A stretch of DNA of 45,549 bases, from assembly GCA_023663085.1 (NCBI GenBank), contig JAMPIB010000025.1:1-45549 (forward strand), given 5' to 3'. This DNA comes from Ruminococcus sp. (lineage in GTDB: Bacteria; Bacillota; Clostridia; Lachnospirales; Lachnospiraceae). Position 1 is the stretch's first letter, and each line of letters opens with the position of its first letter. The position numbers and the translations under genes were made by a program. The notes below the pieces were generated by a model, which had not been told where the DNA came from, did not search any database, and saw only the letters and a program-made list of their open reading frames with translations. Below are positions 19,596-40,051 of the stretch, one piece after another.

Positions 19596-19624
19596 TTGAC
19601 AGGAGCAGGAACGGGCTGTATACT
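19596..19624 (+). promoter_or_regulatory. Promoter of the HMA/DUF6796 operon
   Basis: TTGACA (19596-19601), 17 nt, TATACT (19619-19624), starting immediately after the stop of the GGDEF gene. A GTTAG-N6-CTAAC palindrome begins 10 nt after the -10, so it would cover the first transcribed bases. Confidence 0.75.
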
Positions 19625-19634
19625 GGAAACAAGA

Positions 19635-19650
19635 GTTAGGCATTACTAAC
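19635..19650. promoter_or_regulatory. GTTAG-N6-CTAAC operator, site A
   Basis: GTTAGGCATTACTAAC, a 16-bp palindrome just downstream of the -10 box. Four more copies occur in this window at promoters of related genes (36862, 36905, 39967, 40034). Probable repressor site. Confidence 0.75.
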
Positions 19651-19676
19651 CACAAAGTGAAAAGGAGCGGATCTAT

Positions 19677-19928
19677 ATGGTAAAGATTACATTGGCAATC
19701 GACGGAATGGCCTGCGGGATGTGTGAGGCACATATCAACGATGCGGTCAGAAATGCTTTTCCGGTGAAAAAGGTAAGCAGTTCGCATACGAAGAAGCAGA
19801 CGGTCATTATCGCACCACAGGAGATTCCGGAACAGGAATTAAGGGACGTGATCGGAAAGACGGGATACAGCGTTGTGTCGGTGGACAGCGAGCCGTATGA
19901 GAAAAAGGGGTTATTCGGATGCCGGTAA
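19677..19928 (+). CDS. Heavy-metal-associated (HMA) domain protein
   Basis: An 83-residue protein forming one HMA fold, with the metal-binding loop GMACGMC at residues 10-16 (the usual GMxCxxC) and strand-helix pattern through residue ~70. The tail ends in a cysteine (GLFGCR). It could be a copper chaperone or a metal sensor domain. A strong AAAGGAG site precedes the start. It is the first gene behind site A and overlaps the next by 10 bp. Confidence 0.85.
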   Translation: MVKITLAIDGMACGMCEAHINDAVRNAFPVKKVSSSHTKKQTVIIAPQEIPEQELRDVIGKTGYSVVSVDSEPYEKKGLFGCR

Positions 19929-20320
19929 AAGTGGAGAGCATGACACCCTCCATTCCGGCGTTGCTGGAAATTATAAAAGGCTGCCTGAAATCGCTTGGTT
20001 TTAAGGGATGTATTTCCTATATGAAAAAACTAAGTCAAGGCAGAAAATCTTTGGAAAGCCGCATGAAGAAAGCGAAAAAGAATTTTATCAAGATTGAACT
20101 CGTGGCAGTCACCAAACCTTATCAGGGACAGGGATATATGAGGAAAACACTTGACATCGCTTTTGGGGCAGGGCAGGAAAAGAAACTTCCCTGTATTCTG
20201 GATACGGACGGCAGGCTGAAACGGGATAAATATATCAGCGTGGGAATGCAGCTTGCAGGAACGAGGAAAATAGAAGAGGGTCTGTATTTATATGATCTTA
20301 TAAAAACAACAGAAAGATAA
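19919..20320 (+). CDS. GNAT-like acetyltransferase, C-terminal portion
   Basis: A 133-residue protein whose second half carries GNAT motif A (ELVAVTKPYQGQGYMRKTLD, with the QGxGY acetyl-CoA loop) and the following motif B strand-helix (LPCILDTDGRLKRDKYISVG). The first ~60 residues are basic and lack the N-terminal strands expected of a complete GNAT, so this is either a truncated gene or a minimal acetyltransferase. It has a usable AAGGGG ribosome site and overlaps the HMA gene by 10 bp, so it is probably still translated. Confidence 0.65.
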   Translation: MPVKVESMTPSIPALLEIIKGCLKSLGFKGCISYMKKLSQGRKSLESRMKKAKKNFIKIELVAVTKPYQGQGYMRKTLDIAFGAGQEKKLPCILDTDGRLKRDKYISVGMQLAGTRKIEEGLYLYDLIKTTER

Positions 20321-20333
20321 GGGGTATCGCGTA

Positions 20334-20984
20334 ATGAACATGATTTTCGGATTTTTAGGACTTGCAGGGGGAATCCTCTGCGCGATAGGGGATATACTTT
20401 TCGACTTAAAAGGAAAAGGGAATCAAAAACTTGGCGCTTCGGGAATGATCGACAGCAACTGGGTGAAGATGCCCTATTGGAGATTCGGCGCGTCTATACT
20501 GGTGGCTTTTTTGGGGGACGTTCTGCTGGGATTTGGCTTTTACGCGCTGGTCGGTCAGATCAACGGTGGGCACGGTACGCTGGCGGCAGTCATCGCCATA
20601 TGCGGGTATGTGAGCGTCATTGCCGGATTTTTTATCCATACGGTTTTGTGCATACAACCGATAATCTATAAAAAAATCATGGAAACGGATAATCCTAAAC
20701 TGGCTGACGATGTGTTAGGCGCATACTATAAAGCTGTTCTGCCGCCGTTTTTCATCGGATACGGGTTTATGCTTGTGGCGACGGTATGCGTTATCATTGC
20801 CATTGTAAAAGGTATTTTGGATGTGCCGACATGGTTCGTGCTGCTCAATCCCTTTGTGTTTTTGATAGTGGGAGTGAGCTTTAGAAAGATAAAGCCGGAC
20901 TGGTTTTATGACCTGCCGGGCATTATCATGCCGAGCCTTGGGATGGGGATGTTCGGAGTGATCGCAGTTGTGAGTATGCTTTGA
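20334..20984 (+). CDS. DUF6796-like membrane protein
   Basis: A 216-residue protein with about six helices. The first helix contains GGILCAIGDILFD, which has a GxGD pattern shared with the products at 38529 (MGSGDWLMMYG) and 39206 (CGIGDWLIGYE). A tryptophan-containing MPYWRF loop and a VPTWFVLLNP segment also have counterparts there. I therefore treat the three as paralogs. No function is known. It lies in the operon controlled by site A. It might be a transporter or sensor, but nothing catalytic is visible. Confidence 0.75.
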   Translation: MNMIFGFLGLAGGILCAIGDILFDLKGKGNQKLGASGMIDSNWVKMPYWRFGASILVAFLGDVLLGFGFYALVGQINGGHGTLAAVIAICGYVSVIAGFFIHTVLCIQPIIYKKIMETDNPKLADDVLGAYYKAVLPPFFIGYGFMLVATVCVIIAIVKGILDVPTWFVLLNPFVFLIVGVSFRKIKPDWFYDLPGIIMPSLGMGMFGVIAVVSML

Positions 20985-20996
20985 GGGAGGATATAT

Positions 20997-21488
20997 ATGG
21001 TAACATTTTTACTTTCATTACTTGTGATAGCTGGAATTACCCTGATGCTGTATGCAGCGGTCGCGCTGGTGCAGGATAAGCGTTTTTTTGGTTCTGCGCC
21101 CAGGGACGCGCAGGAACTGATACAGCCCAAACCGGAACGCTTTAAAGGGCAGCATTTGCTTGGCTGGGCGCTTTTGCTCTTAAGTCTGCTGATGCTCATA
21201 GCGGCGGCGCTTTGGGCTGTATGGGACGGCGTGCGGAACAATTTTGGATTCTGGCAGTTTTTTGCGAGATTCCTGACCATACTGTATGCTTATAAGGCAT
21301 ACGATATGATCTGTTTTGACTTTATACTGGTGACCCGTACCCGTTTCTTTCAGCACTATTATCCGGAAGTAGATGTATGTGAGAGTTTTCACAAATATGG
21401 TTTTAACTTAAAAAGCCAGATAATCCGCATTATCGTTTATCCGTTTCTGTGCGCATTGATCGCGGGGATATGCGGCAGCTTTCTATAG
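20997..21488 (+). CDS. Hypothetical membrane protein
   Basis: A 163-residue protein with four helices (residues ~2-22, 54-78, 90-110 and 140-160). A conserved-looking loop YDMICFDFILVTRTRFF follows helix 3. I do not recognise the family by name. It starts 12 nt after the DUF6796-like gene behind GGGAGG, so it belongs to the same operon. The frame-broken ORF at 21545 may encode a relative of its first half. Confidence 0.7.
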   Translation: MVTFLLSLLVIAGITLMLYAAVALVQDKRFFGSAPRDAQELIQPKPERFKGQHLLGWALLLLSLLMLIAAALWAVWDGVRNNFGFWQFFARFLTILYAYKAYDMICFDFILVTRTRFFQHYYPEVDVCESFHKYGFNLKSQIIRIIVYPFLCALIAGICGSFL

Positions 21489-21544
21489 AATGACGGAGTG
21501 CGGATTCTGGTGTGATTTCAGATACAGCAGAAAGGGGTAAGGCA

Positions 21545-21786
21545 ATGGTTTTTATTTAAACAATCCGCTGAGGGGTATTTTCTTTTATCCAAAGCCAGTG
21601 CGGCAGCGGGTTTTTGAAATGGAATTGGTTACGGAAGAAGAAACAAAAAGGCGTAAAGCCACATTTTTTACCGTGCTTGTTCTGGGAGTGCTTATCCTGC
21701 CGGTGGTTTTTATCGGAGGCTGGAGCGGGATTTCCGATTTCAGGACGGCGTTTATTCACGGAGGAGAATTTAATGAGGCCATCTGA
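21545..21786 (+). pseudogene. Small membrane protein with a one-base frame break and truncated end
   Basis: ATG 21545, preceded by AAAGGGG, runs into a stop after four codons. If the T5 run at 21549-21553 had one more T, the frame would read MVFYLNNPLRGIFFYPKPV and continue open for 80 residues to 21786, with one membrane helix (FFTVLVLGVLILPVVFIGGW). The downstream part is also readable from a GTG at 21598. The protein ends inside the start of the ATC-hydrolase gene and looks truncated. The break could be a real mutation, a sequencing error or phase variation. Confidence 0.55.
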
Positions 21787-22486
21787 ATTGCATATCGACT
21801 TGAACAGACATATTTTATACTCGCCAGAAATGGAGAAGGTCATCCGGAAAAAGTTATCCGAAAGATACGATTCAGACGGTGCAGATCAAGTATGGGAAAA
21901 AATTCAACTGCAATATGCAGCTTTCCTAAAGGATCTTCCGTATCTTGGCGGGAAGAAGAACACGCACAACGGCGTGGGCGGAACATATGATTGTATTATG
22001 CTTTTTGCATATTATGAGGTTCTTGATCCAAAGCCATCTATCAACGAACTTTACGAAATGAATGTGGAAGTATTTCTGCCGGCTTTTCAGAAAATGGCTG
22101 GTGTAGTCAATCCAAACAAACCATTGCTCCTAAGGCTTCTGCATCTGGCTTTTGTGATAACAGCGAAAAAGGATAATAAATCTCCAAAGCAACCGACAGG
22201 TTACATCATGGAAGTAGAGCCATACAGCAAAACAGAAGGTGTGAGATACCATTTCCACCGCTGCCCGATTGCAGAATTCGCAAAAGAACACGGTTATCTG
22301 GATATTATGCCCGCATTCTGCAACACCGATTATCCGGCGATGGATATGATAAATGGCGCGTTGATTCGCAGGCACACCTGTGCCAACAGCAATATATGTG
22401 ATTATTGGATTGTGGGAGACCAAAGTGAGATAGCAAAAAAACACCCGCGAAAAACAGATGAAAAGGGATATTGGTATAATGATTAA
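21773..22486 (+). CDS. L-2-amino-thiazoline-4-carboxylic acid hydrolase family protein
   Basis: A 237-residue protein matching the ATC_hydrolase family in its C-terminal part: RCPIAEFAKEHGYLDIMP, CNTDYPAMDMINGALIR and CDYWIV, with the conserved cysteines (about 165, 183 and 203). Characterised members open the thiazoline ring on the route to L-cysteine, but most homologs are untested, so the substrate here is open. The start at 21773 has GGAGGAG 6 nt upstream. It lies at the end of the site-A gene group and meets a converging GH3 gene across a shared terminator. Confidence 0.8.
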   Translation: MRPSELHIDLNRHILYSPEMEKVIRKKLSERYDSDGADQVWEKIQLQYAAFLKDLPYLGGKKNTHNGVGGTYDCIMLFAYYEVLDPKPSINELYEMNVEVFLPAFQKMAGVVNPNKPLLLRLLHLAFVITAKKDNKSPKQPTGYIMEVEPYSKTEGVRYHFHRCPIAEFAKEHGYLDIMPAFCNTDYPAMDMINGALIRRHTCANSNICDYWIVGDQSEIAKKHPRKTDEKGYWYND

Positions 22487-22522
22487 AGCGACATCTTTCA
22501 CCCGAAGAAGGAAAAACAGATT

Positions 22523-22558
22523 AATAGCAGAGCCATTGCAATGTGGTTCTGCTATTTG
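22523..22558. terminator. Bidirectional terminator
   Basis: A 12-bp stem, AATAGCAGAGCC (22523-22534) with GGTTCTGCTATT (22545-22556), containing one G-T pair, sits between two converging genes. The T/A-rich flanks are short. Confidence 0.6.
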
Positions 22559-22592
22559 TGTCTGCTTATGACCTGCCGGGTTATGCAAAGAA

Positions 22593-24920
22593 TTACTTCT
22601 TCAATATTTTTTTAAGTCCCCTGAGCAAATGACCATTAAAAATTTCCACCAGACCGTAAATTACATTTCGTGTCCCACCCCCCATACTGAGACCACGGAT
22701 TGGCATGGATTCCATGGTTTCCCTTGCCATTCTTACAGCCTGTGGGGTGCCGCCCATTTCTTTGGCAGCGGTCTTGCTGCCTATGGGAAGTATCAATTTG
22801 CCAAGCAAAGAGTCCGTTGTATGAAGCAGCAGAGAATCCTTGGTGAAGGGATGGCGGGGTGTATCTTTTGGAATCGGATGCCCCAAAAGTTTCTCAAATT
22901 CTTCCTGACCAGCAGTTCCTATGGCATAAGATAATGTTTCCGGTATTACCCCCTCATTCATATAAATTTTCCCGGATAGTCGAATATCCCGACTTGAGGA
23001 ACCAATCTGAATCTGATATGTTCCAGGTTCCACGCTCCAGGACTTATTTTTAGGATTGAACCAGGAGAACATATCCTTTGTCAATTCAAAGGATATACGG
23101 ATCTCTTCGTTTGGTGCAAGATGCACTTTTCTAAATGCCTTCAACTCTTTCTCCGCACGAAATACTTTTGATTCCGGCAGAGAAAGATATATCTGCACCG
23201 CTTCTCCGCCCGAAAAATTTCCAGTATTTTTAATCGTACAGCTAACGGTATTTCCATTGATCTGTAAATCCCGATAGTCAAAAGTTGTGTAGGAAAGTCC
23301 ATAGCCAAAAGGATAAGCGACATTTTTGTGGGCTGAATCGTAGTAACGATAGCCGACATAGATGCTTTCCCGATACTGAATATGCTCATCTCCGGATGCA
23401 AATGTGCTGTGATTGGGTGTATCCTCTATGGAGAGAGGCCATGTTTCTGCCAGTCTGCCTTCAGGGCATATTTTCCCGGAGAGCAGATCCCAAGCAGCGT
23501 GTCCGCCCTGTTGACCAGACAGATACATCAGAAGGATGCTTTTTACTTTTTCAGTCCAGGGAAGGACCATCGGACTGCCGCCTTGCAGGATGACCACAGT
23601 ATTGGGGTTTATATCTGCTACTGATTCAATTAATGCATTATGTGACGGTGGGAGTTCCATGTTTTCACGGTCATAGCCCTCGCTTTCAGAAATATCCGGC
23701 AACCCGGCGAATATCAGCACAACATCTTTACCGCGGGCAGTTTCGACAGCCTTGTGTATCATCTGTGCATCCGGTTCCATGGAGTCCTGACGGTATCCGT
23801 CAGCATAGTCAAAAGAAATATTGGCGTCTTCCAGTGCCTGACAGAAGCTATCCAGACTATGGGGACAAATCTTACTGGAACCGGCGCCCTGATATCTGGG
23901 GTATTTCGCCATTGCGCCAATGACCGCCATTTTTGCGTCCGGCTTAACCGGCAGGAGTCCATTGTTCTTTAAAAGCACGGCAGAACGCTGGGCGACTTCT
24001 CTTGCCAGATCACTGTGTGCGTCCATATCGCAGGTAAAAGAAATGCTGTCCCGCTGCGCGGATCGGTTCAACAGTTCCAATACATTGGCGGCGGCTCTGT
24101 TAATGTCGGTTTCTGACAATACATTGTCCTGTACTGCCTGCACCAGTTCTCTGTCTGTTCCCTTGCAGGTTCCCGGCATTTCCAGATCCAGACCATTGCG
24201 GAAAGATGCCGCCGGATTGCTCATCGCGCCCCAGTCGGTAACAAACAGTCCATCAAATCCCCACTCGGCTCTGGCAACGTCTTCCATAAGCCATTTGTTT
24301 TCAGAGCAGAATGTACCGTTTAAGCGATTGTAGGCAGTCATAATTGTCCAAGGATGTGCTTCCTTTACCGCAATTTCAAATGCTTTCAAATAGATTTCGC
24401 GCAGAGCCCGCTCATCAATCACAGAATCTTCCCACATGCGCTGCTTTTCCTGATTGTTTGCAGCGAAATGTTTTATGCTGGTTCCCACCCCCTGACTCTG
24501 TACGCCGCGGATAAATGCGGCGGCCAGCTTGCCGGCGAGCACTGGGTCTTCTGAAAAATACTCAAAATTGCGCCCGCAGAGCGGATTTCTCTTAATGTTG
24601 ACGCCGGGCCCCAGGAGTACCGCAACATCTTCTTTCCGACATTCCTCGCCTAATGCTTTTCCCATTCGTTCTAAAAGGTCAGTGTCAAAGGAACAGGCAG
24701 AAGCGGAGGCTGTAGGAAAACAGGTTGCAGGGATAGATGCCGCAATACCGAGGTGGTCCCCGGCAACACCTTGCTTACGGAGACCATGAGGGCCGTCACT
24801 GAGCATGATGCCGGGAAGTCCAAGGCGTTCACAGCCCTCTGTATGCCAGAAATCCCGTCCGGAAAGCAGTTTTGCCTTTTCTTCCAGACTCAAAGTTGTA
24901 AGAAGCGATTCTTTTTGCAT
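22593..24920 (-). CDS. Glycoside hydrolase family 3 (beta-glucosidase-like)
   Basis: A 775-residue cytoplasmic enzyme in the usual GH3 order. The N-terminal TIM barrel carries SDGPHGLRKQ, the substrate-binding KHFAANNQE segment and the nucleophile Asp229 in GLFVTDWGAM. The alpha/beta sandwich follows from ~340 (GAGSSKICPH, with the flexible loop usually bearing the acid/base), then a fibronectin-III-like domain with YPFGYGLSYTTF at ~545. No signal peptide. It probably cleaves beta-glucosides or related residues imported by the symporter upstream. Start 24920 is favoured by GGAAGAG upstream; ATG 24941 is possible. Last gene of the minus-strand operon. Confidence 0.93.
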   Translation of the reverse strand: MQKESLLTTLSLEEKAKLLSGRDFWHTEGCERLGLPGIMLSDGPHGLRKQGVAGDHLGIAASIPATCFPTASASACSFDTDLLERMGKALGEECRKEDVAVLLGPGVNIKRNPLCGRNFEYFSEDPVLAGKLAAAFIRGVQSQGVGTSIKHFAANNQEKQRMWEDSVIDERALREIYLKAFEIAVKEAHPWTIMTAYNRLNGTFCSENKWLMEDVARAEWGFDGLFVTDWGAMSNPAASFRNGLDLEMPGTCKGTDRELVQAVQDNVLSETDINRAAANVLELLNRSAQRDSISFTCDMDAHSDLAREVAQRSAVLLKNNGLLPVKPDAKMAVIGAMAKYPRYQGAGSSKICPHSLDSFCQALEDANISFDYADGYRQDSMEPDAQMIHKAVETARGKDVVLIFAGLPDISESEGYDRENMELPPSHNALIESVADINPNTVVILQGGSPMVLPWTEKVKSILLMYLSGQQGGHAAWDLLSGKICPEGRLAETWPLSIEDTPNHSTFASGDEHIQYRESIYVGYRYYDSAHKNVAYPFGYGLSYTTFDYRDLQINGNTVSCTIKNTGNFSGGEAVQIYLSLPESKVFRAEKELKAFRKVHLAPNEEIRISFELTKDMFSWFNPKNKSWSVEPGTYQIQIGSSSRDIRLSGKIYMNEGVIPETLSYAIGTAGQEEFEKLLGHPIPKDTPRHPFTKDSLLLHTTDSLLGKLILPIGSKTAAKEMGGTPQAVRMARETMESMPIRGLSMGGGTRNVIYGLVEIFNGHLLRGLKKILKK

Positions 24921-24950
24921 TATATTCTCTTCCGCCTCCAATGTATTGTA

Positions 24951-25484
24951 TTATTTTCTAATGATCAGACCGTTTATCAAGTTGCTTATTCCGCCGACTG
25001 TAAGGCCAAGTCCCATGATGAAAATCTGGGAGACTGCGGCACCAAAGGGATTCGCTATCATGAGGATTCCAATAATAGCGGTCACAAGGCTGGCGATAAG
25101 TGAAACTATCCATTTGCTGTTTTGATCTTTGTTTAGTATGGTTTGCATAATGTTTACTGCGCTGTTGACAATGATAAGTATTCCCATGATAAAAGGTAAA
25201 ATGGAAACTACAGTTTTCATTTTTGCAATTAAAACAATACCTACTATTATAATAATAACAGATTTCAAGGTAGTAATAACACTGTCTTTGCTAATATTCT
25301 CTTCCCCGTTTTTCTTTCGTCTGATAAAAAGAACTGCTAAGCCTATAACACCTGCAATTATAAGACCACAGCCAATTACCATGCAGGCAATATCCATAGT
25401 TTCTCCTGGCCAAACCATCAAAATGATGCCAAGGATAATCATGATAAGTGAAGATACCACTTCGTTATGAAGAATTTTTTTCAT
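24951..25484 (-). CDS. DUF308 (HdeD-like) membrane protein
   Basis: A 177-residue protein with six short hydrophobic helices arranged as three repeats of helix pairs, typical of DUF308/HdeD. The glycine-rich helices (SLIMIILGIILMVWPG and FIMGILIIVNSAVNIMQ) are representative. E. coli HdeD is linked to acid resistance at high cell density, but the role in Firmicutes is unknown. It lies between a sugar symporter and a GH3 gene in one operon, an unexpected position. Ribosome site AAAAGGAG is strong. Confidence 0.85.
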   Translation of the reverse strand: MKKILHNEVVSSLIMIILGIILMVWPGETMDIACMVIGCGLIIAGVIGLAVLFIRRKKNGEENISKDSVITTLKSVIIIIVGIVLIAKMKTVVSILPFIMGILIIVNSAVNIMQTILNKDQNSKWIVSLIASLVTAIIGILMIANPFGAAVSQIFIMGLGLTVGGISNLINGLIIRK

Positions 25485-25503
25485 TTTAATACCACTCCTT
25501 TTA

Positions 25504-26958
25504 CTATAGTTTTTCCTGCTGTTCTCTGGATTTCAGAACTTTCTCCACCCGCAGGAAGAAGAACAGGATCATCATCACCGCCGCCCCGATGAGTTCCGCG
25601 CCATAATAGGAACCGAGAATGCCGGTCAGCGTAGCCTGTGACTGCGTCGCCGCTACAGTCACGCCATCCACAAGACTTGGCGCCACATATCCGGTGCGGG
25701 ACAGGATCAGGTTGAAGACACTGGTACACAGACCTGCCATGACTGTAATAATGATGCTGTATACCGACATGCCGAAGCCATCGCAGCGGAAGTGATGGGT
25801 CAGTTCGAAATGGTCCAGACAGTCGGCGAAGAAAGCCATGAAGATATAGGAACTGGGGATGGTTCCCACATTCTTGATAATCTGCCCGACAATGACTATG
25901 GCCATATTGGCGGGAGCCAGCAGACAGATGGCAACTCCTGCTACGGTCAAACCGCTCCCGATGAGGAACAGAGTACGTTTCTCCATTTTTTTGGTCAGCG
26001 GGATGATGATGAACATTCCCAGCCCCATGGGGAGACCGCCTATTACCTGCAATATGGTAGGGGTGATACCGTCGTTATAAGTACCCAGAATGTAGTTGCA
26101 ATAGTAGAGCAGGCTGGTACTGCGCATATAGGCGATAAACTGGGTGATGGCAAAGATCAGCAGCACCATTATCATGTATTTGTCCGTAAAGCAGGCCTTC
26201 ATCTGCTTTGTGTAGGGGATTTCCTCCTTCTTTTCAGCGTTTTCTTCATTTTCTGTCTCTGTGATCCGCTCCTTGGTGAAAAAATACTCCAACAGTCCCA
26301 GCGGCAGTACGAAGATAGCGACAATGCAGATCATAGTGATCCATTTTGTCTGGTCCACGCCGATTGCCGGCAGTACCAGCATGGGAACCAGAGTTGCCGC
26401 CAGCGTTCCCGCAAAGACGATGTTGGAAATGCTGGCAAGGGTGGAGAGTGTTGCCCGTTGGCTGGAATTTTTCGTGGAGAGCGGTATCATCATGTTGTGG
26501 CTCATGTTGTAGATTGTGTAGCTGATGGCATAGTACAGATTATAGGAAATGACGATCCAGACAAGCTGGACGGCCATGCTGGCCCTGGGGATCGCATACA
26601 TCAGGATACCGGCAATGGGCATGAGGGTTGCACCGAGCAGGATATACGGACGGGCTTTGCCCTGTTTTGTCTTTGTGTGGTCGATCAGATATCCCATGAA
26701 TACATTAGTTACTGCATCCAGAATTTTGGAGATCAGCGGGAATGTAGCAAGAAAAGCGCCGCCTGCCACGGCAGTCAACCCCAAAACATCCGTGTAGTAG
26801 ACGTTGATATATCCATTGATGATTGCATTGAACACCAGTGCGCCTACTGGCCCCAGCAGATAGCCGAAAGCCTTTTCCTTAAATGTTGTATCCTCCGTAG
26901 TAATCCTGCTGTTCCAGATTTTTTTGGCAAAAAAGCCTCGTTTGTCTTGTAATGTCAT
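25504..26958 (-). CDS. GPH-family sugar:cation symporter (MFS)
   Basis: A 484-residue transporter with 12 helices of the glycoside-pentoside-hexuronide family. Early motifs include GPVGALVFNAIINGYINVYY and the family's KILDAVTNVFMGYLIDHTKT segment with the D-x-x-x-D-cation signature. A helix 4-5 stretch RPYILLGATLMP is also typical. It should import a glycoside or disaccharide with Na+ or H+, feeding the GH enzymes of the locus. It begins the minus-strand operon with AAGGGAGG before the ATG, and a 19-bp element shared with the GH43 promoter lies 61 nt upstream. Confidence 0.93.
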   Translation of the reverse strand: MTLQDKRGFFAKKIWNSRITTEDTTFKEKAFGYLLGPVGALVFNAIINGYINVYYTDVLGLTAVAGGAFLATFPLISKILDAVTNVFMGYLIDHTKTKQGKARPYILLGATLMPIAGILMYAIPRASMAVQLVWIVISYNLYYAISYTIYNMSHNMMIPLSTKNSSQRATLSTLASISNIVFAGTLAATLVPMLVLPAIGVDQTKWITMICIVAIFVLPLGLLEYFFTKERITETENEENAEKKEEIPYTKQMKACFTDKYMIMVLLIFAITQFIAYMRSTSLLYYCNYILGTYNDGITPTILQVIGGLPMGLGMFIIIPLTKKMEKRTLFLIGSGLTVAGVAICLLAPANMAIVIVGQIIKNVGTIPSSYIFMAFFADCLDHFELTHHFRCDGFGMSVYSIIITVMAGLCTSVFNLILSRTGYVAPSLVDGVTVAATQSQATLTGILGSYYGAELIGAAVMMILFFFLRVEKVLKSREQQEKL

Positions 26959-27018
26959 AGTACCTCCCTTCTTTTATAAATAAAATTATGTATATGTTGA
27001 TATGGTATCGTATTTTTA

Positions 27019-27037
27019 TTGATTTGTAATGTAAAAT
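27019..27037 (-). promoter_or_regulatory. 19-bp AraC operator candidate, copy 1
   Basis: The minus strand reads ATTTTACATTACAAATCAA, identical over 19 bp to positions 28340-28358 on the plus strand. Both copies face their own downstream operon (symporter/GH3 here, GH43/GH3/GH78 there) and flank the AraC gene. Confidence 0.7.
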
Positions 27038-27077
27038 AGACTATATTATTATAAAATTGTCTATAAGAAATGTTTTT

Positions 27078-28295: not shown

Positions 28296-28339
28296 AAGAT
28301 TTGCTCCTTAATATTTACAAATTTACAATATAATAGCGC

Positions 28340-28358
28340 ATTTTACATTACAAATCAA
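28340..28358 (+). promoter_or_regulatory. 19-bp AraC operator candidate, copy 2
   Basis: ATTTTACATTACAAATCAA, 71 nt before the GH43 start and 45 nt before the divergent AraC start. A half copy (GTAAAAT) follows at 28369, and a direct repeat of ATTTACAA lies just left of it (about 28313-28328). No strong -35 is visible, in keeping with activator dependence. Confidence 0.7.
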
Positions 28359-28428
28359 GGCCCGCACTGTAAAATAAAATGAATTAGTAAGTAATAGTGG
28401 CAATTCAGTTTTATGAAAGAGGTGACAG

Positions 28429-31841: not shown

Positions 31842-31891
31842 CCATATCATAACTATAAATCAGTGATAGGATTTTCAAAGAGGAAAAATAT

Positions 31892-34489
31892 ATGCTTCAT
31901 ATTGAACATTTGCAAATTAACCATCTGGAGAACCCTTTTGGCATATCTGTTTCACCCATCAGACTGACATGGACTCTCGGCGGAAACGGCAGGCAGGTAT
32001 CCTATGAAGCAGAAATCCTCTTAGATGGAAACCCCGTAGAGACCAGCGGTGAGGTCAGGACATCTGCCATGTTCTGGCAGTCTGAAAAAGAACTTGCGTA
32101 CAAAACAGATTATATTGTAAAAGTGAAAGTAACCGACGAAACAGGCACCGTTTCTGAAAATGCCGAGATTGCCGTAACGACAGGCATCGGGCAGGAACAA
32201 TGGAGGGCGCACTGGATCGATCCGGAAGTTCCGGGGAAATCTTTTACGCAAAAAGTTCACTGGAATCTGCGGGATAAGCTGATGCTCCCGAATGTTGACC
32301 TGCGGGTATACGATAGAGGAGCTTATCTTAAAAAAGAATTTATAGTCGATAAGTCGTTTCATAAGGCGAGGTTGTATGTGACCGCACACGGTATCGTGAA
32401 TGTCCTGCTGAATGGTCAGGAAATTACTGATGCGCAGTTATTGCCGGGCACTTCTCAATATAACCGACGTCTGATGGTGGAAACCATTGATGTAACCGCA
32501 TATTTGAAATCAGGGAATAATATTCTGGAGGCCACGCTGGGAAACGGATGGTACCGCGGGTCGATGGGATATCGCCAGTATCGTCATGTGTATGGAGATG
32601 ATATTGCCCTGCTTGCCCAGTTAGAGATGGATGACGTACCTGTTGTTATGACAGATGAGAACTGGGAAGTTTCGACTGATGGCGCGCTTGGCTTAAACGA
32701 TATGATGGCCGGCGAACATTATGACGCAAGAAAAGAGGAAACCATGACATGGCATAAGCCTGCTGTCAGGGAGTTTGCTTTTGACTGCCTGGTCTGTCGG
32801 GATACGGTACCCATGAAGCTTCGTGAATGTTTTGTCCCGGAAATCATCCGGACGCCTGCCGGGGAGACCGTTCTTGATTTTGGACAAAACATAGCAGGTG
32901 TTATCGCTTTCGAGTTTGCGGGAAAAGCCGGACAGAAACTTGTCCTGACCCATGGGGAGACACTGGACGGCAATGGAAACTTTACTACAGATAATTTTCA
33001 GGCATGGGGCAGACCGGTCCGGCAGCAGATTGTCTATATCTGCAAAGATGGCAAAAACAGTTATCGTCCCACCAAGACTTATATGGGTTTCCGTTATGTT
33101 AAGGTAGAAGCTGATTTTACGATAAAAAAAGAATGGTTCAAGGCGTATGCCCTTTATTCGGATATGCGGCAGACGGCTTTTTTTACCTGTGGAGTGGAAG
33201 AAGTGAACAGGCTTTTTCAGAATGCCGTATGGTCTATGAAAGGGAATTTTGTCGATATCCCTACCGACTGTCCGACCAGAGAAAAAGCCGGTTATTCCGG
33301 AGATTGTCAGACATTTATTCATACAGCGATGTACTTGATGGACTGTTATCCGGTCTATGCCAAATGGTTAAAGGAACAGGCGGCGGCTCAGTTTGAAGAT
33401 GGCTGTGTGCCGCAGATTGCTCCGACTTCGGCTCTGAAAAAAACTGAAGAAGATGGCGGAATCGGGTGGAGTGATTCTTTTGAAATCATTCCCTGGATAC
33501 TCTATCAGCGTTATGGCGATGATACTTTGATGCGGGAACTGTATGAGCCGCTGAAAAAATGGATGGCATACCGTAAAAGCCGGAGCGGCATGATGCGGCG
33601 TGCCAATGAGCATATCGTGCCAATGGCTATGCAGCCATATACGCTGGATAGTGAGTGGCTGTTTGGCGAGTGGCTGGAGCCGGGCGCCGATACGGCGGAA
33701 TATCGCAGTAATCTACGTAAATACGGTGATTTGGAAGTCAGCACGGCCTATATGTATTATAGTCATCTGCTGATGTCCCGGATTGCAGAAACATTGCACA
33801 ACTTTGAGGATGCCAAAGAATATCAGACGATAGCCGGGAAAGCAAAAGAAACATACCGTTGTCTTTTTACGGAGGACGGCAGGATAAAGCCGACGGGACG
33901 CCAGTGCCGCTATGTCCGGCCGGTGGCGCTTGGCCTTTTGGAGGAAGAGGAAAAGAGAGCGGCCGTTGAAAGTCTGGCGGAGCTGATAAAAGAAAAAGGG
34001 AATCATATTGGAACCGGCTTTCTGACAACGCATGAACTGTGCCGGACGCTGTGCCGGTACGGTCAGGCAGGGAAAGCATATGATCTTCTGCTCCAAAGAG
34101 AAAGACCCGGCTGGCTGTATCCGGTACTGCACGGCGCAACCACAGTCCCGGAAAGCTGGGACGCTTATCAGGATTCTGTAAAGAGAGTGGAATCCATGAA
34201 TCATTATGCCTATGGAGCCATTGCGGGCTGGCTGATTGACAGCGCCGCGGGTATCCGGCTGGAACATGGAAATATTATTATCCAGCCATATCCGGACAGG
34301 CGGCTGGGTTATGTCACCGCCGCTTATGACTCTCCGGTCGGCCGTATTGGTTCTTCCTGGAGAATTGAAAATGACCGGATTACCTATGAATTTCATATTC
34401 CGGCGAATGCGCAGGCAACTGTGATTTTGGGAGATAAAATACTTAAATTGGAGAGCGGGGCGCATAGTTTTATGGATTATATGCAATAA
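31892..34489 (+). CDS. Alpha-L-rhamnosidase (GH78)
   Basis: An 865-residue GH78 enzyme. An N-terminal beta domain is followed by the rhamnosidase N domain (GNGWYRGSMGYRQY near 210), a beta sandwich, and the (alpha/alpha)6 barrel. Its catalytic segment DIPTDCPTREKAGYSGD gives the conserved Asp, Glu and Asp, while GATTVPESWDAY supplies the second catalytic glutamate. No signal peptide, so it acts inside the cell on imported rhamnosides such as flavonoid or saponin glycosides. Last gene of the GH43-GH3-GH78 operon, 50 nt after GH3 with AGAGGAA before the start. Confidence 0.95.
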   Translation: MLHIEHLQINHLENPFGISVSPIRLTWTLGGNGRQVSYEAEILLDGNPVETSGEVRTSAMFWQSEKELAYKTDYIVKVKVTDETGTVSENAEIAVTTGIGQEQWRAHWIDPEVPGKSFTQKVHWNLRDKLMLPNVDLRVYDRGAYLKKEFIVDKSFHKARLYVTAHGIVNVLLNGQEITDAQLLPGTSQYNRRLMVETIDVTAYLKSGNNILEATLGNGWYRGSMGYRQYRHVYGDDIALLAQLEMDDVPVVMTDENWEVSTDGALGLNDMMAGEHYDARKEETMTWHKPAVREFAFDCLVCRDTVPMKLRECFVPEIIRTPAGETVLDFGQNIAGVIAFEFAGKAGQKLVLTHGETLDGNGNFTTDNFQAWGRPVRQQIVYICKDGKNSYRPTKTYMGFRYVKVEADFTIKKEWFKAYALYSDMRQTAFFTCGVEEVNRLFQNAVWSMKGNFVDIPTDCPTREKAGYSGDCQTFIHTAMYLMDCYPVYAKWLKEQAAAQFEDGCVPQIAPTSALKKTEEDGGIGWSDSFEIIPWILYQRYGDDTLMRELYEPLKKWMAYRKSRSGMMRRANEHIVPMAMQPYTLDSEWLFGEWLEPGADTAEYRSNLRKYGDLEVSTAYMYYSHLLMSRIAETLHNFEDAKEYQTIAGKAKETYRCLFTEDGRIKPTGRQCRYVRPVALGLLEEEEKRAAVESLAELIKEKGNHIGTGFLTTHELCRTLCRYGQAGKAYDLLLQRERPGWLYPVLHGATTVPESWDAYQDSVKRVESMNHYAYGAIAGWLIDSAAGIRLEHGNIIIQPYPDRRLGYVTAAYDSPVGRIGSSWRIENDRITYEFHIPANAQATVILGDKILKLESGAHSFMDYMQ

Positions 34490-34526
34490 ATGATTTTCGT
34501 GTTGTTTTCACCAAATTCAAAATATT

Positions 34527-35123
34527 TCATAGTAAGGTTCCCTTTCCCGATATGTAGATTTCCAATACCCGCAGCATGATCTCAATGCTGTTATCAAGGG
34601 ATGCCTCTACCAGAGTATCTCTGTGTTCGCGCATGGCATAGATGGATTTGATTAAATTTACCACTGTGCCGCAGTCGATATTTTCCCGGACATCCAAGAT
34701 CATCGAGAGCCACACCTGCGCCAGCGCCATCTGGTCTACGGGGTTAAACAGATCAGCGTCCGCCATGTGTGTTTTCAGCCAGAGAAAATCATCGACAGTC
34801 AGTCCGTTCATCAGGTCATATTCCGAACACAGGTATTCTCTGAAAAATTCCAGAAATTCATGTGTGGACATCTGACTGCGTCCTGCGAGTTTTTCTTTGA
34901 GCATTTCATTCTTCTTTTGTTCCGCCCATTCTGCAAGCGCCAGAATAAAGGCTTCTTTGGATTCATAAAAGCTGTAAAAGCTGCCCTTGGCAATTCCGCA
35001 GGCCGAAGTCAGTTTTGAGACTGTCGTGCGCTGTACGCCAAGGGTACGAAAGAGTTTTATTCCTTCATGGAAAAGCTGTTCCCGTATCTCTACCTGCTGT
35101 TTTTTTGTAAATGAGGCCGGCAT
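34527..35123 (-). CDS. TetR/AcrR-family regulator (first)
   Basis: A 198-residue TetR protein. The N-terminal HTH is TVSKLTSACGIAKGSFYSFY followed by ESKEAFILAL; the rest is the helical ligand and dimer domain. The start at 35123 has AAGGAG six nt upstream. Its promoter (35178-35206) contains a palindrome, TGACTG-N13-CGGTCA at 35148-35172, well placed for autorepression. A palindrome of the same size and outline occurs at 39935-39959. It converges with the rhamnosidase gene but is probably unrelated to it. Confidence 0.92.
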   Translation of the reverse strand: MPASFTKKQQVEIREQLFHEGIKLFRTLGVQRTTVSKLTSACGIAKGSFYSFYESKEAFILALAEWAEQKKNEMLKEKLAGRSQMSTHEFLEFFREYLCSEYDLMNGLTVDDFLWLKTHMADADLFNPVDQMALAQVWLSMILDVRENIDCGTVVNLIKSIYAMREHRDTLVEASLDNSIEIMLRVLEIYISGKGTLL

Positions 35124-35147
35124 CTGATTCTCCTTCCATGCTAACAA

Positions 35148-35172
35148 TGACTGATTTGATAAAAAGCGGTCA
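35148..35172. promoter_or_regulatory. TetR-type palindrome TGAC-N17-GTCA
   Basis: TGACTG and CGGTCA frame a 13-nt AT-rich centre; outer half-sites TGAC/GTCA pair exactly. It lies just downstream of the -10 of the TetR gene's own promoter. The site at 39935 has the same 25-bp length and matches 17 of 25 positions. Confidence 0.6.
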
Positions 35173-35177
35173 TTGAC

Positions 35178-35206: not shown

Positions 35207-35258
35207 TAAAGGATTCGCCCGGATAAGAGTGCCGAAGCACTCCTATATCCTAAACCTC

Positions 35259-35287: not shown

Positions 35288-35293
35288 CTTCAT

Positions 35294-35476
35294 AGAAGCC
35301 GAAGGATTCTGACATGTCCGACGGTTGTACAACCGGAAACGAGTAATCAATTTTAGAAAAACAAACGGATTACCGGCTATTCTCTATTCGCAGTAGAGGA
35401 TAGCCTTTTCCATTACTTGCTCTATCTTTTAACAGCGCGGGAATAGAAAAAGAGCGAAAAGGACGGTGTAGAGGCT
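35294..35476 (+). ncRNA. Structured 5' leader, candidate riboswitch or attenuator
   Basis: A ~180-nt leader before an HD-GYP gene. It contains a perfect palindrome CGGTTGTACAACCG (35322-35335), paired arms GTAATC/GATTAC (35343-35348, 35368-35373) and a terminator-like hairpin right after them. I tried to match it to cyclic-di-GMP-I and -II riboswitches and could not, so the class is unassigned. Confidence 0.4.
35375..35411 (+). terminator. Terminator-like hairpin in the HD-GYP leader
   Basis: GGCTAT-t-CTCTA (35375-35386) pairs with TAGAG-g-ATAGCC (35394-35405), a 12-bp stem with one T-G pair and a 7-nt loop, followed by TTTTCC. It lies 66 nt before the start codon, so it would abort the leader transcript unless prevented. 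Confidence 0.65.
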
Positions 35477-36808: not shown

Positions 36809-36824
36809 GAATTTTCCGTCCCTA

Positions 36825-36854
36825 TTGACAAGAGCCTCCGAAGAGGAGTATACT
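36825..36854 (+). promoter_or_regulatory. Promoter of the hydrolase/DUF6796 operon
   Basis: TTGACA (36825-36830), 18 nt, TATACT (36849-36854). Hexamers are the same as those of the promoter at 19596, and an operator palindrome again follows, here 7 nt after the -10. Confidence 0.75.
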
Positions 36855-36861
36855 AAAAACA

Positions 36862-36877
36862 GTTAGCGGCTACTAAC
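36862..36877. promoter_or_regulatory. GTTAG-N6-CTAAC operator, site B
   Basis: GTTAGCGGCTACTAAC, near the expected transcription start. Part of it also forms the left arm of a small hairpin (CGGCTAC 36867-36873 with GTAGCCG 36882-36888) followed by TTTCTCTT, so the RNA could attenuate as well. Confidence 0.75.
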
Positions 36878-36904
36878 GAATGTAGCCGTTTCTCTTATTA
36901 CAAG

Positions 36905-36920
36905 GTTAGCTTCTACTAAC
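36905..36920. promoter_or_regulatory. GTTAG-N6-CTAAC operator, site C
   Basis: GTTAGCTTCTACTAAC, 43 bp (about four helical turns) from site B, which places two repressor dimers on the same face. A further CTAAC half-site follows at 36928. Confidence 0.75.
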
Positions 36921-36953
36921 TATATATCTAACTATACATCGAAAGGAGAAACC

Positions 36954-37730
36954 ATGAAATTTTATGAATTTGGTGATAAGAACAATCCGGTGATTCTTTT
37001 GCTGCCGGGAACCTGCTGTCATTGGAAGACGAATTTTGAAACAGTGATCCCGCTTTTGCAGGAGGAGTTTTATGTCGTCTGTGTATCCTATGATGGTTTT
37101 GATGAAACGGAAAACACCATATTTTCGGATATGCTGACGGAAACAGAAAAGATAGAAAATTATGTCAGGGAAAATCATGGCGGTAAAGTACATGCCGCTT
37201 ATGGCTGCTCTATGGGCGGGAGTTTTGTAAGTCTGCTGGTGCAGCGTAAGGATATCCATATCAACCATGCCATTCTTGGCAGTTCCGATCTGGATCAGGA
37301 AACCGGACTCTCGGCCCGCTTTAAGAGCTGGCTGATCGCCAAAATCCTCTCCGGGATGTTCCGGAAAGGGAAACTGCCCGGATTCATGCAGCGCAGACTG
37401 GAGAAAAAGTCGGCGGATGAGAGACAGTATTACGATAAAATGCTGGGGTTATTCGGTGTGGGAGGTACCCGCATGTCTTTTGTGAAGCAGGAGAGTATAA
37501 AAAATCAGTTCTACTCAGATCTGGTCACGCCGGTTGAGGATGGGATTGTGGTAGAAGGCACGACGGTACATATTTTTTATGCCGTAAAAATGGGTGAGCA
37601 ATATCTTAAACGGTATCATGCGCATTTCAAAGAGCCCGACATACGCCGCCATGAGATGCAGCATGAGGAACTGTTAGTCTGTTATCCAAAGCGTTGGGCG
37701 GAGGAAGTCAAAGCCTGCTGTAAATTGTGA
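36954..37730 (+). CDS. Alpha/beta hydrolase (first of a tandem pair)
   Basis: A 258-residue soluble alpha/beta hydrolase. The strand LLLPGTCCHW leads to the oxyanion region, the nucleophile elbow is YGCSMGGS with Ser86, and a C-terminal MQHEELLV segment carries a candidate catalytic His. The neighbour at 37771 has the same length, the same YGCSMGGS elbow and the same VIPLL segment, so the two arose by tandem duplication. Here the acid residue is less clear. The substrate is unknown. First gene behind operators B and C with AAAGGAGA before the start. Confidence 0.88.
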   Translation: MKFYEFGDKNNPVILLLPGTCCHWKTNFETVIPLLQEEFYVVCVSYDGFDETENTIFSDMLTETEKIENYVRENHGGKVHAAYGCSMGGSFVSLLVQRKDIHINHAILGSSDLDQETGLSARFKSWLIAKILSGMFRKGKLPGFMQRRLEKKSADERQYYDKMLGLFGVGGTRMSFVKQESIKNQFYSDLVTPVEDGIVVEGTTVHIFYAVKMGEQYLKRYHAHFKEPDIRRHEMQHEELLVCYPKRWAEEVKACCKL

Positions 37731-37770
37731 TAGGAAAGAATTGAAATACGCTAAAGGAGCAGACATCACC

Positions 37771-38532
37771 ATGACGATACATGAATATGGCAAAGAAAAT
37801 ACAGAGAGCATCCTGCTGATCCACCCTTCTGTCGTAAGGTGGGATTATTTTGGGAATGTGATTCCACTTCTGGAAAAGAAATACCACCTCATCATACCGG
37901 CTCTGCCCGGCTATGACCTGGAGGAAAAAAACGATTTTACAAGTGTGGAACAGATAGCGGAGGAACTGAACGCATGGCTTAAGAAAAATGGATATGAGAG
38001 GCTGTATGCAGTCTATGGATGCTCCATGGGCGGCTCCATTGCCCTGATGGTTGCCCTTGGAAATGCAGCCCGTATCGAGCATTGCATTATGGATGGCGGC
38101 ATTACGCCTTACCAGCTCCCGTGGCTTATTACCAGACTGATCGCAGTCAGGGATTTTGCCATGATGATGTTTGGCAGATGGGGCGGCGTGAAACTTCTGG
38201 AAAAAGTCTTTTCCACGGATGATTATTCCCAAGAAGATATCCAGTATGTCGCGGACATCCTGAAACAAAGCAGCAAAAAGACCCTGTGGCGGACGTTCGA
38301 TTCCTGTAATAATTATAAAGTGCCGGATCCGGTTCCGAAAATATCCGCCAAGATCCATTACTGGTATGCGGATGGCGAAGAAAAAGAAAGGGCCTGGGAT
38401 ATCAGATACATGAAGGAGAAATTCCCCGATATGGAATTTAAAATTCTGCCAAAACTCGGTCATGCAGGGCTGGTTCTGATGAAACCGGAACTGTTTGCGG
38501 ATATGGTAGATGCGTTAAGGAGGCAGCAATGA
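37771..38532 (+). CDS. Alpha/beta hydrolase (second of the pair)
   Basis: A 253-residue alpha/beta hydrolase, paralog of the gene before it. It has the elbow YGCSMGGS with Ser85, an acid candidate in YWYADGEEKE and a clear catalytic His in LGHAGLVL, so the triad looks complete. Start 37771 is chosen at MTIHEYG, which aligns with the paralog's MKFYEFG, with AAAGGAG 11 nt upstream; the frame is open back to a TTG at 37741. It overlaps the next gene by 4 bp. Confidence 0.88.
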   Translation: MTIHEYGKENTESILLIHPSVVRWDYFGNVIPLLEKKYHLIIPALPGYDLEEKNDFTSVEQIAEELNAWLKKNGYERLYAVYGCSMGGSIALMVALGNAARIEHCIMDGGITPYQLPWLITRLIAVRDFAMMMFGRWGGVKLLEKVFSTDDYSQEDIQYVADILKQSSKKTLWRTFDSCNNYKVPDPVPKISAKIHYWYADGEEKERAWDIRYMKEKFPDMEFKILPKLGHAGLVLMKPELFADMVDALRRQQ

Positions 38533-39209
38533 TGATAAATAATAAAAGAAAAATAATTTCAGCTTTGGTCTGCGGCATGCTGGGCTGCGTTTTCATGGGC
38601 AGCGGCGACTGGCTGATGATGTATGGCAGTACTGTTTATCATGGAAATATCTACTGGCTTACAGAGGGTGTGGCGCAGATTCCGGCATGGAGAAACAACC
38701 TTGCCATGTTTGTGGCTTTTCCTGCGGTTCTGCTGTATGGGATCGCGTTGTTTACCACTGTCGGCTTTGTGAAACAGGAGAAGGATAAAAAAATCTATCA
38801 TTATCTGACCGCATTCGGCCTGATTCCCTGGCTGTGCCTACATCTGTTTTATGTCATGATCCTGTTTGTATTTGCATGGTTAGGCAGTAATGGCTATGAA
38901 GCGGCGGCGCTGCCCGCGGCGGAGGCTCTTTGTTCCCAGTTTTCATGGATTGTGGCATTGAGCGAGGTGATTATGATTCCGCCTTTTTTGTACTGGTTTT
39001 ACCTGCAGGTGTCCGGTAAGACGATATTCCCGAAAGGAATGGCGTTTACAAATGTGCTGGTCATTTACGGTATTTTGTGGCTTGTAAAATCCGCCATGCC
39101 CGATACGCCGTTTCGGATCGGATTTACTAACGGACTGATGAGCGAGAGCATGATTCTCTGGTTCGGGATCATGCTGGTGTGGGTTGCATGCTACAGGCGG
39201 CGCTCTTAG
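38529..39209 (+). CDS. DUF6796-like membrane protein
   Basis: A 226-residue protein with about six helices and the GSGDWLMMYG motif at the end of helix 1 that it shares with the convergent gene at 39206 (GIGDWLIGYE). A conserved tryptophan loop (IPAWRNN) and a membrane-embedded HLFYVMILFVF segment follow. No enzyme motif. Last gene of the operon controlled by sites B and C; its stop overlaps the stop of the convergent paralog by 4 bp. Confidence 0.75.
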   Translation: MMINNKRKIISALVCGMLGCVFMGSGDWLMMYGSTVYHGNIYWLTEGVAQIPAWRNNLAMFVAFPAVLLYGIALFTTVGFVKQEKDKKIYHYLTAFGLIPWLCLHLFYVMILFVFAWLGSNGYEAAALPAAEALCSQFSWIVALSEVIMIPPFLYWFYLQVSGKTIFPKGMAFTNVLVIYGILWLVKSAMPDTPFRIGFTNGLMSESMILWFGIMLVWVACYRRRS

Positions 39210-39904
39210 CGGTTCCCTTTTGATGATCGTAAAAAGGCAAGACACATAAAAGCGTATCCCCATGACTCGCCGCAGGACGTCAGGAAAGCAAACTGTCCAA
39301 GACCGGAAACGATTAAGATCACAGCGATGACTTTCATGAATATGCTCATGCCGAGCGGGCTGCAGATGGCCATCCACTTCGGCAGTCCGAGTTTTCCTTT
39401 CAGAACCAGAACGATAAAGCTGACAGTCACCGGAATGTCAACGATAAAGCACCAGATCGTGAAGGGGATGATGGAAACTGCCGTTGGCAGCAGGAACACA
39501 CTGTTGGCCGCGTCTTCCGTCACACCGGCTTTTAGCGCCGCCTGTATCAGCAGCAGGGCAATGCAGCATGCCGTATGGAAGGATATGAACATCAGCGGCG
39601 CAGATGCTAATCCAAAGCGGAATCCCTTATATGCTTTCGATTCACGATCCACCCGCAGCGCATCCAGAATTTCTATCATTACCGGGGCAAACGCCCGGCA
39701 GGCAAAGGCGGAAAGAACACCGAAAACCATAGATGTTATATAAAACCAGGAAGGGACTTCTACCATCTTCGTGTTTGTGATCCCGAAGATCAGTTCCTGA
39801 CCGCCCTGTGGTTCGTATCCGATCAGCCAGTCGCCGATCCCGCAGAGGAACAAGGCTATAAAGCCGAATAGCAGCGCATTGTTCCATTTCTTTTTCTGTT
39901 CCAT
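39206..39904 (-). CDS. DUF6796-like membrane protein
   Basis: A 232-residue, six-helix protein with GIGDWLIGYEPQGG near residue 23-36 and a VEVPSWFYI loop matching the paralogs. A membrane histidine (ISFHTACCIALLL) lies at the position of the HLFYVM segment in the 38529 product. It is expressed from its own promoter, which contains GTTAG-N6-CTAAC between -35 and -10 and a TGACCA palindrome downstream. The function is unknown. Confidence 0.75.
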   Translation of the reverse strand: MEQKKKWNNALLFGFIALFLCGIGDWLIGYEPQGGQELIFGITNTKMVEVPSWFYITSMVFGVLSAFACRAFAPVMIEILDALRVDRESKAYKGFRFGLASAPLMFISFHTACCIALLLIQAALKAGVTEDAANSVFLLPTAVSIIPFTIWCFIVDIPVTVSFIVLVLKGKLGLPKWMAICSPLGMSIFMKVIAVILIVSGLGQFAFLTSCGESWGYAFMCLAFLRSSKGNR

Positions 39905-39934
39905 AGCAATACCTTCTTTCTTTTCTCTCTCGTC

Positions 39935-39959
39935 TGACCATTTTTAATAAAACTGGTCA
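39935..39959. promoter_or_regulatory. Palindrome TGACCA-N13-TGGTCA
   Basis: A perfect 6-bp inverted repeat around 13 AT-rich bases, 31 nt before the 39206 gene's start codon and just past its -10. It mirrors the palindrome in the promoter of the first TetR gene (35148). Confidence 0.65.
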
Positions 39960-39964
39960 TTGAT

Positions 39965-39993
39965 ATGTTAGCATTAACTAACCCGGTTGTCAA
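39965..39993 (-). promoter_or_regulatory. Promoter of the 39206 gene with operator site D
   Basis: Minus strand: TTGACA (39993-39988), 17 nt, TAACAT (39970-39965). The palindrome GTTAGCATTAACTAAC (39967-39982) fills most of the spacer and the -10, so binding would block polymerase. Confidence 0.8.
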
Positions 39994-40022
39994 TAGAAAT
40001 TCCCATCTTACCATAAAAGGAC

Positions 40023-40051
40023 TTGACTAATAGGTTAGTCTATGCTAACAT
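40023..40051 (+). promoter_or_regulatory. Promoter of the second TetR gene with operator site E
   Basis: TTGACT (40023-40028), 17 nt, TAACAT (40046-40051). The palindrome GTTAGTCTATGCTAAC (40034-40049) lies in the spacer and -10. The arrangement mirrors the divergent promoter at 39965-39993 and implies autorepression by the TetR protein encoded next. Confidence 0.8.

Follow-up and report, generated by a model that had tools for sequence, protein, structure and literature searches.

Which protein binds the palindrome GTTAG-N6-CTAAC, which recurs in front of genes in a 45,549-nt stretch of DNA from Ruminococcus sp. (Lachnospiraceae; GenBank assembly GCA_023663085.1, contig JAMPIB010000025.1)? 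The window, as this stretch is called below, is the entire contig C17; its assembly has 95 contigs, totals 3.44 Mb and is 90.7% complete. The original prediction held that five copies of the palindrome define a regulon of the TetR-family protein encoded at 40093 (TetR1). The shared operator was borne out, and scans of related genomes placed sites in front of orthologs of the same genes in two of them (G060 and G106), but the assignment to TetR1 was not supported. We propose, with a probability of about 0.83, that GTTAG-N6-CTAAC is the operator of a short metal-dependent repressor of the DtxR family, that its likely binder in this genome is the DtxR protein encoded at C3:20629-21030, and that iron starvation would induce the window genes.

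The palindrome in the window and its assembly

The five predicted copies were all found at their positions (Table 1) with perfect arms and a 6-nt centre, compared with a mean of 0.03 and a largest count of 1 in 100 dinucleotide shuffles. The core TTAG-N6-CTAA was present at the identical five positions and at no others in the window, where 0.56 was expected. A single additional copy with one mismatch was located at 41011-41026, within the gene at 40729, and probably arose by chance.

When the whole assembly was scanned, we obtained nine exact sites, compared with two for the reversed-arm version of the palindrome, which served as the control motif throughout. Each of the nine lies shortly upstream of a gene, including the four outside the window (C4:58960, C4:59004, C4:61728 and C19:4986). 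C4 holds three copies, two of them separated by 44 bp; the units behind them are a DUF6796-methyltransferase operon and an ABC exporter gene, the latter cut by the contig end. No clear promoter was found at C4:61728. The site at C19:4986 lies upstream of a MacB-like ABC transporter.

Distribution in the family and genes beside the sites

In 150 genomes of the family (that of the window included), there were 853 matches to GTTAG-N6-CTAAC and 260 to the control. The motif was more frequent than the control in 118 genomes, less frequent in 18 and equally frequent in 14. Further, 50 genomes possessed at least eight copies of the motif, and one genome possessed as many of the control. Frequent occurrence inside genes, which would speak against an operator, was not observed in the loci fetched first: of their 108 sites, 102 were outside any open reading frame (ORF) of at least 120 aa. 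Note that these loci were selected for holding sites and that ORFs were called by length. In both G060 and G106, a site precedes TetR1, and operons with the C4 methyltransferase are likewise preceded by sites; the G106 homolog of the C19 ABC ATPase also follows one.

A Pfam search with 87 site-adjacent proteins of other genomes detected ABC_tran (10), Fe_dep_repress with Fe_dep_repr_C (6), DUF6796 (5), MarR_2 (5), ZIP (4), DUF3793 (4), FeoB (3), Trep_Strep (3) and Enolase (3). This set comprised 84 of 109 listed ORFs and three that were added; the 25 omitted were small ORFs, genes of the window's own genome, TetR1 orthologs, a hydrolase ortholog, the FeoB of locus L113 and a few larger ORFs (L091, L087). 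Ten proteins selected at these loci, lying no more than about 0.7 kb from sites or in the next gene, comprised four FeoB, two NEAT proteins (one match above the cut-off and one below), one Shr-like haem protein, a hybrid kinase, a methyltransferase and a glycyl-radical enzyme. The DtxR, FeoB, NEAT and Shr-like neighbours thus pointed to an iron regulator.

Sites at dtxR and feoB genes

DtxR loci were selected by protein similarity alone (the best 80 of 573 relatives, three of which had too short an upstream stretch, leaving 77). An exact site was located upstream in 26 of the 77 loci, compared with 0.07 in shuffles, and a match of 9/10 or better in 37, compared with 0.97 in shuffles. When all 5-base arms with spacers of 0-14 were searched de novo, GTTAG with a spacer of 6 ranked first, at 26 of the 77 loci; the runner-up (arms CTAAC, spacer 9) was found at 11 loci, and shuffles reached at most 3-4. 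Matches of 9/10 or better were present at 29 of 34 DtxR loci with a FeoB neighbour, versus 8 of 43 without one. The site is found, for example, at the dtxR-feoB locus of the culturable [Ruminococcus] torques ATCC 27756 (L323).

FeoB genes taken from the Pfam score list had an exact site within 600 bp upstream in 12 of 36 cases and a match of 9/10 or better in 22 of 36, compared with no exact match to the control (0/36). This set consisted of 39 of the first 43 places of the list and G106, and four of these 40 gave no usable start; the places passed over were G054, G141 and G089 (already among the loci fetched for their sites) and G029 (contig start). Without G106, which we had chosen ourselves, the counts were 12/35 and 21/35, respectively. 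G106 has the window's regulon in common, and there the interval between feoB and dtxR contains a site; G060 belongs to the same genus as the window, and its feoB is preceded by a site at a distance of 66 bp. Seven genomes without an exact site were also examined: G057, G140 and G069 have 9/10 copies at dtxR-feoB loci, the only 9/10 copy in G072 and G103 lies about 530 bp before a feoB, and no near copy was found within the stretch examined in G091 and G050. What the sequences show directly is the motif itself, where it is placed, how it is conserved and that it is associated with dtxR and feoB.

A candidate repressor

The window's assembly contained one match to the G106 DtxR (C3:20647-21015, 59% identical), which belongs to the 133-aa ORF C3:20629-21030. 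Both Pfam domains were detected, Fe_dep_repress at 43.3 bits (cut-off 26) and Fe_dep_repr_C at 53.3 bits (cut-off 27); the protein stops behind the second of these and has no SH3-like third domain. The DtxR metal motif EACRWEH, which supplies the primary-site ligands Cys102, Glu105 and His106, is aligned with DACKMEH in the candidate. DAC..EH is present in 14 of 17 compared DtxR-family proteins and absent from three. The 14 possess Cys at the Cys102 position and Asn, Asp or Met at the Met10 position (Met in G116, G089, G051 and G053; Asp in G060). According to a review, Met10 and Cys102 raise iron selectivity, and MntR has Asp/Asn and Glu at these positions (PMC10317159). With Asn at the Met10 position and the Cys, the DtxR of the window's genome is thus of a mixed metal-site type. 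The FeoB and haem-protein targets favour iron, so that iron is the favoured metal for this protein and manganese a possible one.

From these sequences we infer binding, metal and direction of regulation as follows. A metal-dependent DtxR-family repressor of about 120-145 aa, found in Lachnospiraceae and neighbouring Clostridia, would bind TTAG-N6-CTAA over the -10 element or the start as a metal-loaded dimer, most likely with Fe2+, and block transcription. When iron falls, the repressor would leave and the genes would be expressed. For the window's genome, we take the DtxR ortholog on C3 to be the likely binder, and iron starvation would induce the DUF6796 proteins, the hydrolases, the HMA and ATC-hydrolase proteins and the operon of TetR1, its enzyme and the MATE exporter. 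In addition, TetR1 would regulate its operon locally by way of a separate palindrome.

Several observations weigh against this proposal. None of the nine exact sites in the assembly (90.7% complete) precedes a known iron gene, the genome's own feoB on C37 has no near match to the motif, and its own dtxR carries a mere 8/10 match over its -10 element. For the iron link in the window's lineage, the support thus comes from G060 and G106. The dtxR of Blautia sp. (L263; 81%), the nearest named one among the best 80 of 573 relatives, has neither a site nor a FeoB neighbour. Among dtxR genes of the family list that encode DAC..EH, just 6 of 20 have a match of 9/10 or better (four exact), compared with 1 of 14, none exact, among those lacking it and 1.1% in shuffles. 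Good near copies at dtxR-feoB loci were found in only three of the seven genomes without an exact site. PF01325 is present in 148 of 150 genomes, so that the presence of DtxR does not discriminate and a comparison of motif count with presence is uninformative; a second, weaker PF01325 match exists in the window's own genome. Further, in place of the IdeR ligand Met10 the candidate, like MntR, has Asn, and its nearest NCBIfam models are MntR, below the cut-off. Finally, a motif can be associated with a regulator gene and yet be bound by another protein.

Alternative binders

That TetR1 binds GTTAG-N6-CTAAC and controls a TetR regulon over 20 kb is very unlikely. Its gene sits amid the regulated genes, and a site overlaps or adjoins its promoter in the window, G060 and G106. 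However, all eight TetR1-type genes, the window's included, have a different palindrome, CTRTGAAYA-N10/11-TRTTCAYAG, at the promoter or start, and GTTAG-N6-CTAAC is found at three of them (window, G060 and G106); at the five distant orthologs no such site was detected, the best match being 6-7 of 10 in 490 bases examined. TGAACA-N9/10-TGTTCA occurs as a single copy in the window's assembly, at TetR1 (a spacing of 11 was not searched there). Moreover, G060 and G106 are the only other family genomes with close orthologs (84-85%), and five have distant ones (33-37%), but genomes that lack a close ortholog also hold many copies of the motif, which is found at dtxR-feoB loci. TetR1 is thus most likely a target of the GTTAG operator, with a separate operator of its own.

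A DtxR-family binder may also sense mainly Mn2+, like MntR, or several metals, in which case the regulon would follow manganese or mixed metal status. We consider this unlikely. It agrees with the MntR models, with the Asn/Asp at the Met10 position in many members, with the ZIP transporters beside sites (4/87) and with a review in which Fur is the iron regulator of low-GC Gram-positives and manganese is left to DtxR proteins (PMC10317159). Against it stand the FeoB, NEAT and Shr-like targets and the Cys that all 14 motif-bearing proteins, of 17 compared, have at the Cys102 position. Binding by another regulator (Fur-type, MarR/MepR-type or several unrelated TetRs) is very unlikely. The GTTAG motif does not resemble the Fur box; a GTTAG motif is known for MepR. 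Unrelated TetRs with 12-18% identity to TetR1 are located near some sites, but they belong to different subfamilies. PF12802 (MarR_2) was matched by five of the 87 site-adjacent proteins, one of them below the cut-off and in a NEAT protein, and the rest are possibly DtxR proteins; no listed PF01047 match lay within 5 kb of the listed sites in eight genomes, and MarR was rejected as a binder. Further, no palindrome is commoner than this motif upstream of the dtxR genes, in agreement with a DtxR-family repressor.

A second TetR protein of the window, TetR2 (34527-35147, minus strand), carries ATGAC-N17-GTCAT at its own promoter (35147-35173), and the same palindrome is present at its G106 ortholog. 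Because it carries its own palindrome, TetR2 is probably not the binder of the GTTAG sites. A similar palindrome, TGACCA-N13-TGGTCA, was found at 39935-39959 in the leader of the DUF6796 gene at 39206-39904, and TetR2 may control this gene as well; the G060 ortholog lacks this palindrome.

Placement of the operators at promoters

The copies had been predicted to lie within or just downstream of promoters. We placed four promoters accordingly, with the copy at 36905 standing as a second one behind that at 36862 (Table 1; positions of +1 and +5 assume a transcription start 7 nt after the -10 element). The predicted overlap with the TetR1 promoter was also found, copy 5 overlapping its -10 element, and the promoters of copies 4 and 5 are divergent. 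An operator over the -10 element or near the start is a repressor-type layout. The promoter-operator layout of the window is repeated at C4, in G060 and in G106, and tandem operator pairs recur in the same three. A promoter scan gave 13 promoter-like sites in the scanned region and 11.2 in shuffles; since this is near the shuffle level, the promoter calls rely on position and on conservation in relatives.

In the leader after the first tandem operator, we noted a 9-bp hairpin (window 36865-36890; L005 6964-6989) with the operator centre as its 5' arm and a T-rich tail. It is kept in seven leaders of G000, G060 and G106, a small set of related sequences, in which three of nine pairs have changes on both sides, a level reached by 18 of 500 shuffles. 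The hairpin may act as an attenuator or as a second DNA site. The idea that every site has such a hairpin was rejected (10 of 454 site-orientations versus 8.3 expected); it is a feature of the seven leaders, six of which pass the threshold of that scan.

Genes behind the operators in the window

Table 1. Operators and genes of the candidate regulon in the window
Feature	Position	Strand	Remarks
Operator copy 1, GTTAGGCATTACTAAC	19635..19650		at about +5 of the HMA-operon promoter TTGACA-17-TATACT, 19596-19624
HMA-domain protein, first gene of operon 1	19677..19928	+	Pfam PF00403, 25.0 bits (cut-off 24.8)
GNAT-like protein, weak	19919..20320	+	PF00583, E 0.05, below cut-off
DUF6796 membrane protein	20334..20984	+	PF20599, 161.6 bits
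163-aa probable membrane protein	20997..21488	+	no Pfam family; homologs near sites in G060, G106, G142
ATC_hydrolase-family protein	21773..22486	+	PF14196, 52.9 bits
Operator copy 2, GTTAGCGGCTACTAAC	36862..36877		at about +1 of the hydrolase-operon promoter TTGACA-18-TATACT, 36825-36854
Operator copy 3, GTTAGCTTCTACTAAC	36905..36920		43 bp downstream of copy 2
Alpha/beta hydrolase A, first gene of operon 2	36954..37730	+	PF00561
Alpha/beta hydrolase B	37771..38532	+	PF12697; ATG start, ORF opens at TTG 37741
DUF6796 membrane protein	38529..39209	+	PF20599, 68.7 bits
DUF6796 membrane protein	39206..39904	-	PF20599, 93.5 bits
Operator copy 4	39967..39982		fills 17-bp spacer and overlaps -10; minus-strand promoter TTGACA-17-TAACAT, 39993-39965, of the 39206-39904 gene
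Operator copy 5	40034..40049		fills 17-bp spacer and overlaps -10; TetR promoter TTGACT-17-TAACAT, 40023-40051
Probable operator of TetR1 itself, CTGTGAACA-N10-TGTTCACAG	40054..40081		type common to all 8 TetR1-type genes
TetR-family regulator TetR1	40093..40692	+	PF00440
PPDK_N + PEP-utilizers enzyme, PEP-synthase/Rph-like	40729..43209	+	Pfam/NCBIfam search
MATE-family exporter	43202..44554	+	TIGR00797, 196.3 bits (cut-off 147.4)

The gene content originally described held for the HMA protein, the three DUF6796 proteins, the two hydrolases, TetR1 and the MATE exporter; the GNAT label is weak and the Rph label falls below the NCBIfam cut-off. TetR1, the phosphoenolpyruvate (PEP)-utilising enzyme and the exporter form one operon, and the enzyme matches models of PEP synthase, rifamycin phosphotransferase and prodigiosin ligase, all under their NCBIfam cut-offs. 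The G106 homolog of the HMA protein (74%) likewise follows a site, orthologs of hydrolase A (79-80%) are located directly behind sites in G060 and G106, and the gene at 39206-39904 has an ortholog in G060 (85%) with a matching operator-promoter layout.

The genes grouped in G106 (L085 6177-11394: hydrolases, two DUF6796 proteins, a membrane protein and a methyltransferase) correspond to three site-bearing loci in the window's genome (L005 7449-9570, window 19677-22486 and window 36954-39209). Scattered over three loci, the cassette appears to shuffle while the operator stays. A decayed-looking gene remnant was observed between two genes of the HMA operon (21556-21783); it matches residues 23-98 of the 161-aa membrane protein of C4 (L005 8207-8692) with 71% identity. 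Between the operator groups lies a glycoside hydrolase cluster (GH3, GH32/43, GH3, GH78) with an AraC regulator and an MFS sugar transporter (22593-34489), in which no exact copy of the palindrome was found.

Relation to known operators and regulators

IdeR was reported to bind as a single dimer at the 14-bp consensus TTAGGNNNNCCTAA (PMC8464063), and the TTAG-N6-CTAA core, present in all five window sites, has the geometry of this one-dimer site; the full TTAGG-N4-CCTAA pattern is matched in part, the inner G being mostly replaced by a pyrimidine. The same study reports that changing the second C of CCTAA to T has little effect and that specific binding is lost when both C are changed (PMC8464063). 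In the operators described here the first C is replaced by A or G, a change other than these two. The IdeR and DtxR proteins of Actinobacteria (PDB 1fx7, 1bi0, 7b20) share with the candidate the two Pfam domains and the Cys-Glu-His metal motif, and iron uptake genes are targets on both sides. In contrast, the candidate has 133 aa without room for SH3, and Asn, Asp or Met is found at the Met10 position; the sites are single or spaced pairs, not a 19-bp two-dimer box; and, in a low-GC Clostridia host, the inner bases of the operator are mostly Y..R and not G..C. Among 34 sites compared in three genomes, a pyrimidine takes the place of the inner G in 63 of the 68 half-sites.

MntR of Bacillus and Escherichia coli (PDB 1on1, 2h09) has the same short two-domain architecture and is the best sequence match of the candidate. 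However, the GTTAG operator is unlike the MntR box. MntR also has glutamate where the candidate has Cys (PMC10317159), and the linkage to feoB is found here. TroR of Treponema is alike in being a DtxR-like repressor that acts at an 18-bp dyad at a promoter and answers to Mn and Fe, but its operator and targets differ from those described here (PMC2628430).

Implications

Iron shapes gut communities. Our literature search, from which subscription papers were mostly absent, found no described iron repressor or operator for Lachnospiraceae, and it found no paper on DUF6796. We tentatively suggest, at somewhat less than even odds, that Lachnospiraceae and nearby Clostridia have a global iron response in which a short DtxR sensor with a mixed metal site, pairing an MntR-like Asn or Asp with an IdeR-like Cys, acts on one-dimer operators, and that an undescribed iron-starvation cassette is under its control in the window's lineage. 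As a speculation from the protein families, the cassette (DUF6796 proteins, hydrolases, methyltransferase, ATC hydrolase, HMA protein and exporters) may serve for metallophores or haem.

The proposal raises the question of how a DtxR protein with a mixed Asn/Cys site selects iron. According to a review, the presence of one-dimer sites of the IdeR type in other species is still to be investigated (PMC10317159), and it may be asked whether such sites are the main operator in another phylum. If the proposal is true, DtxR does in these low-GC Gram-positives a job that the same review assigns to Fur (PMC10317159). Further, iron limitation is a suggested condition for studying the DUF6796 family, and scanning genomes for the operator would make iron regulons predictable in many gut species.

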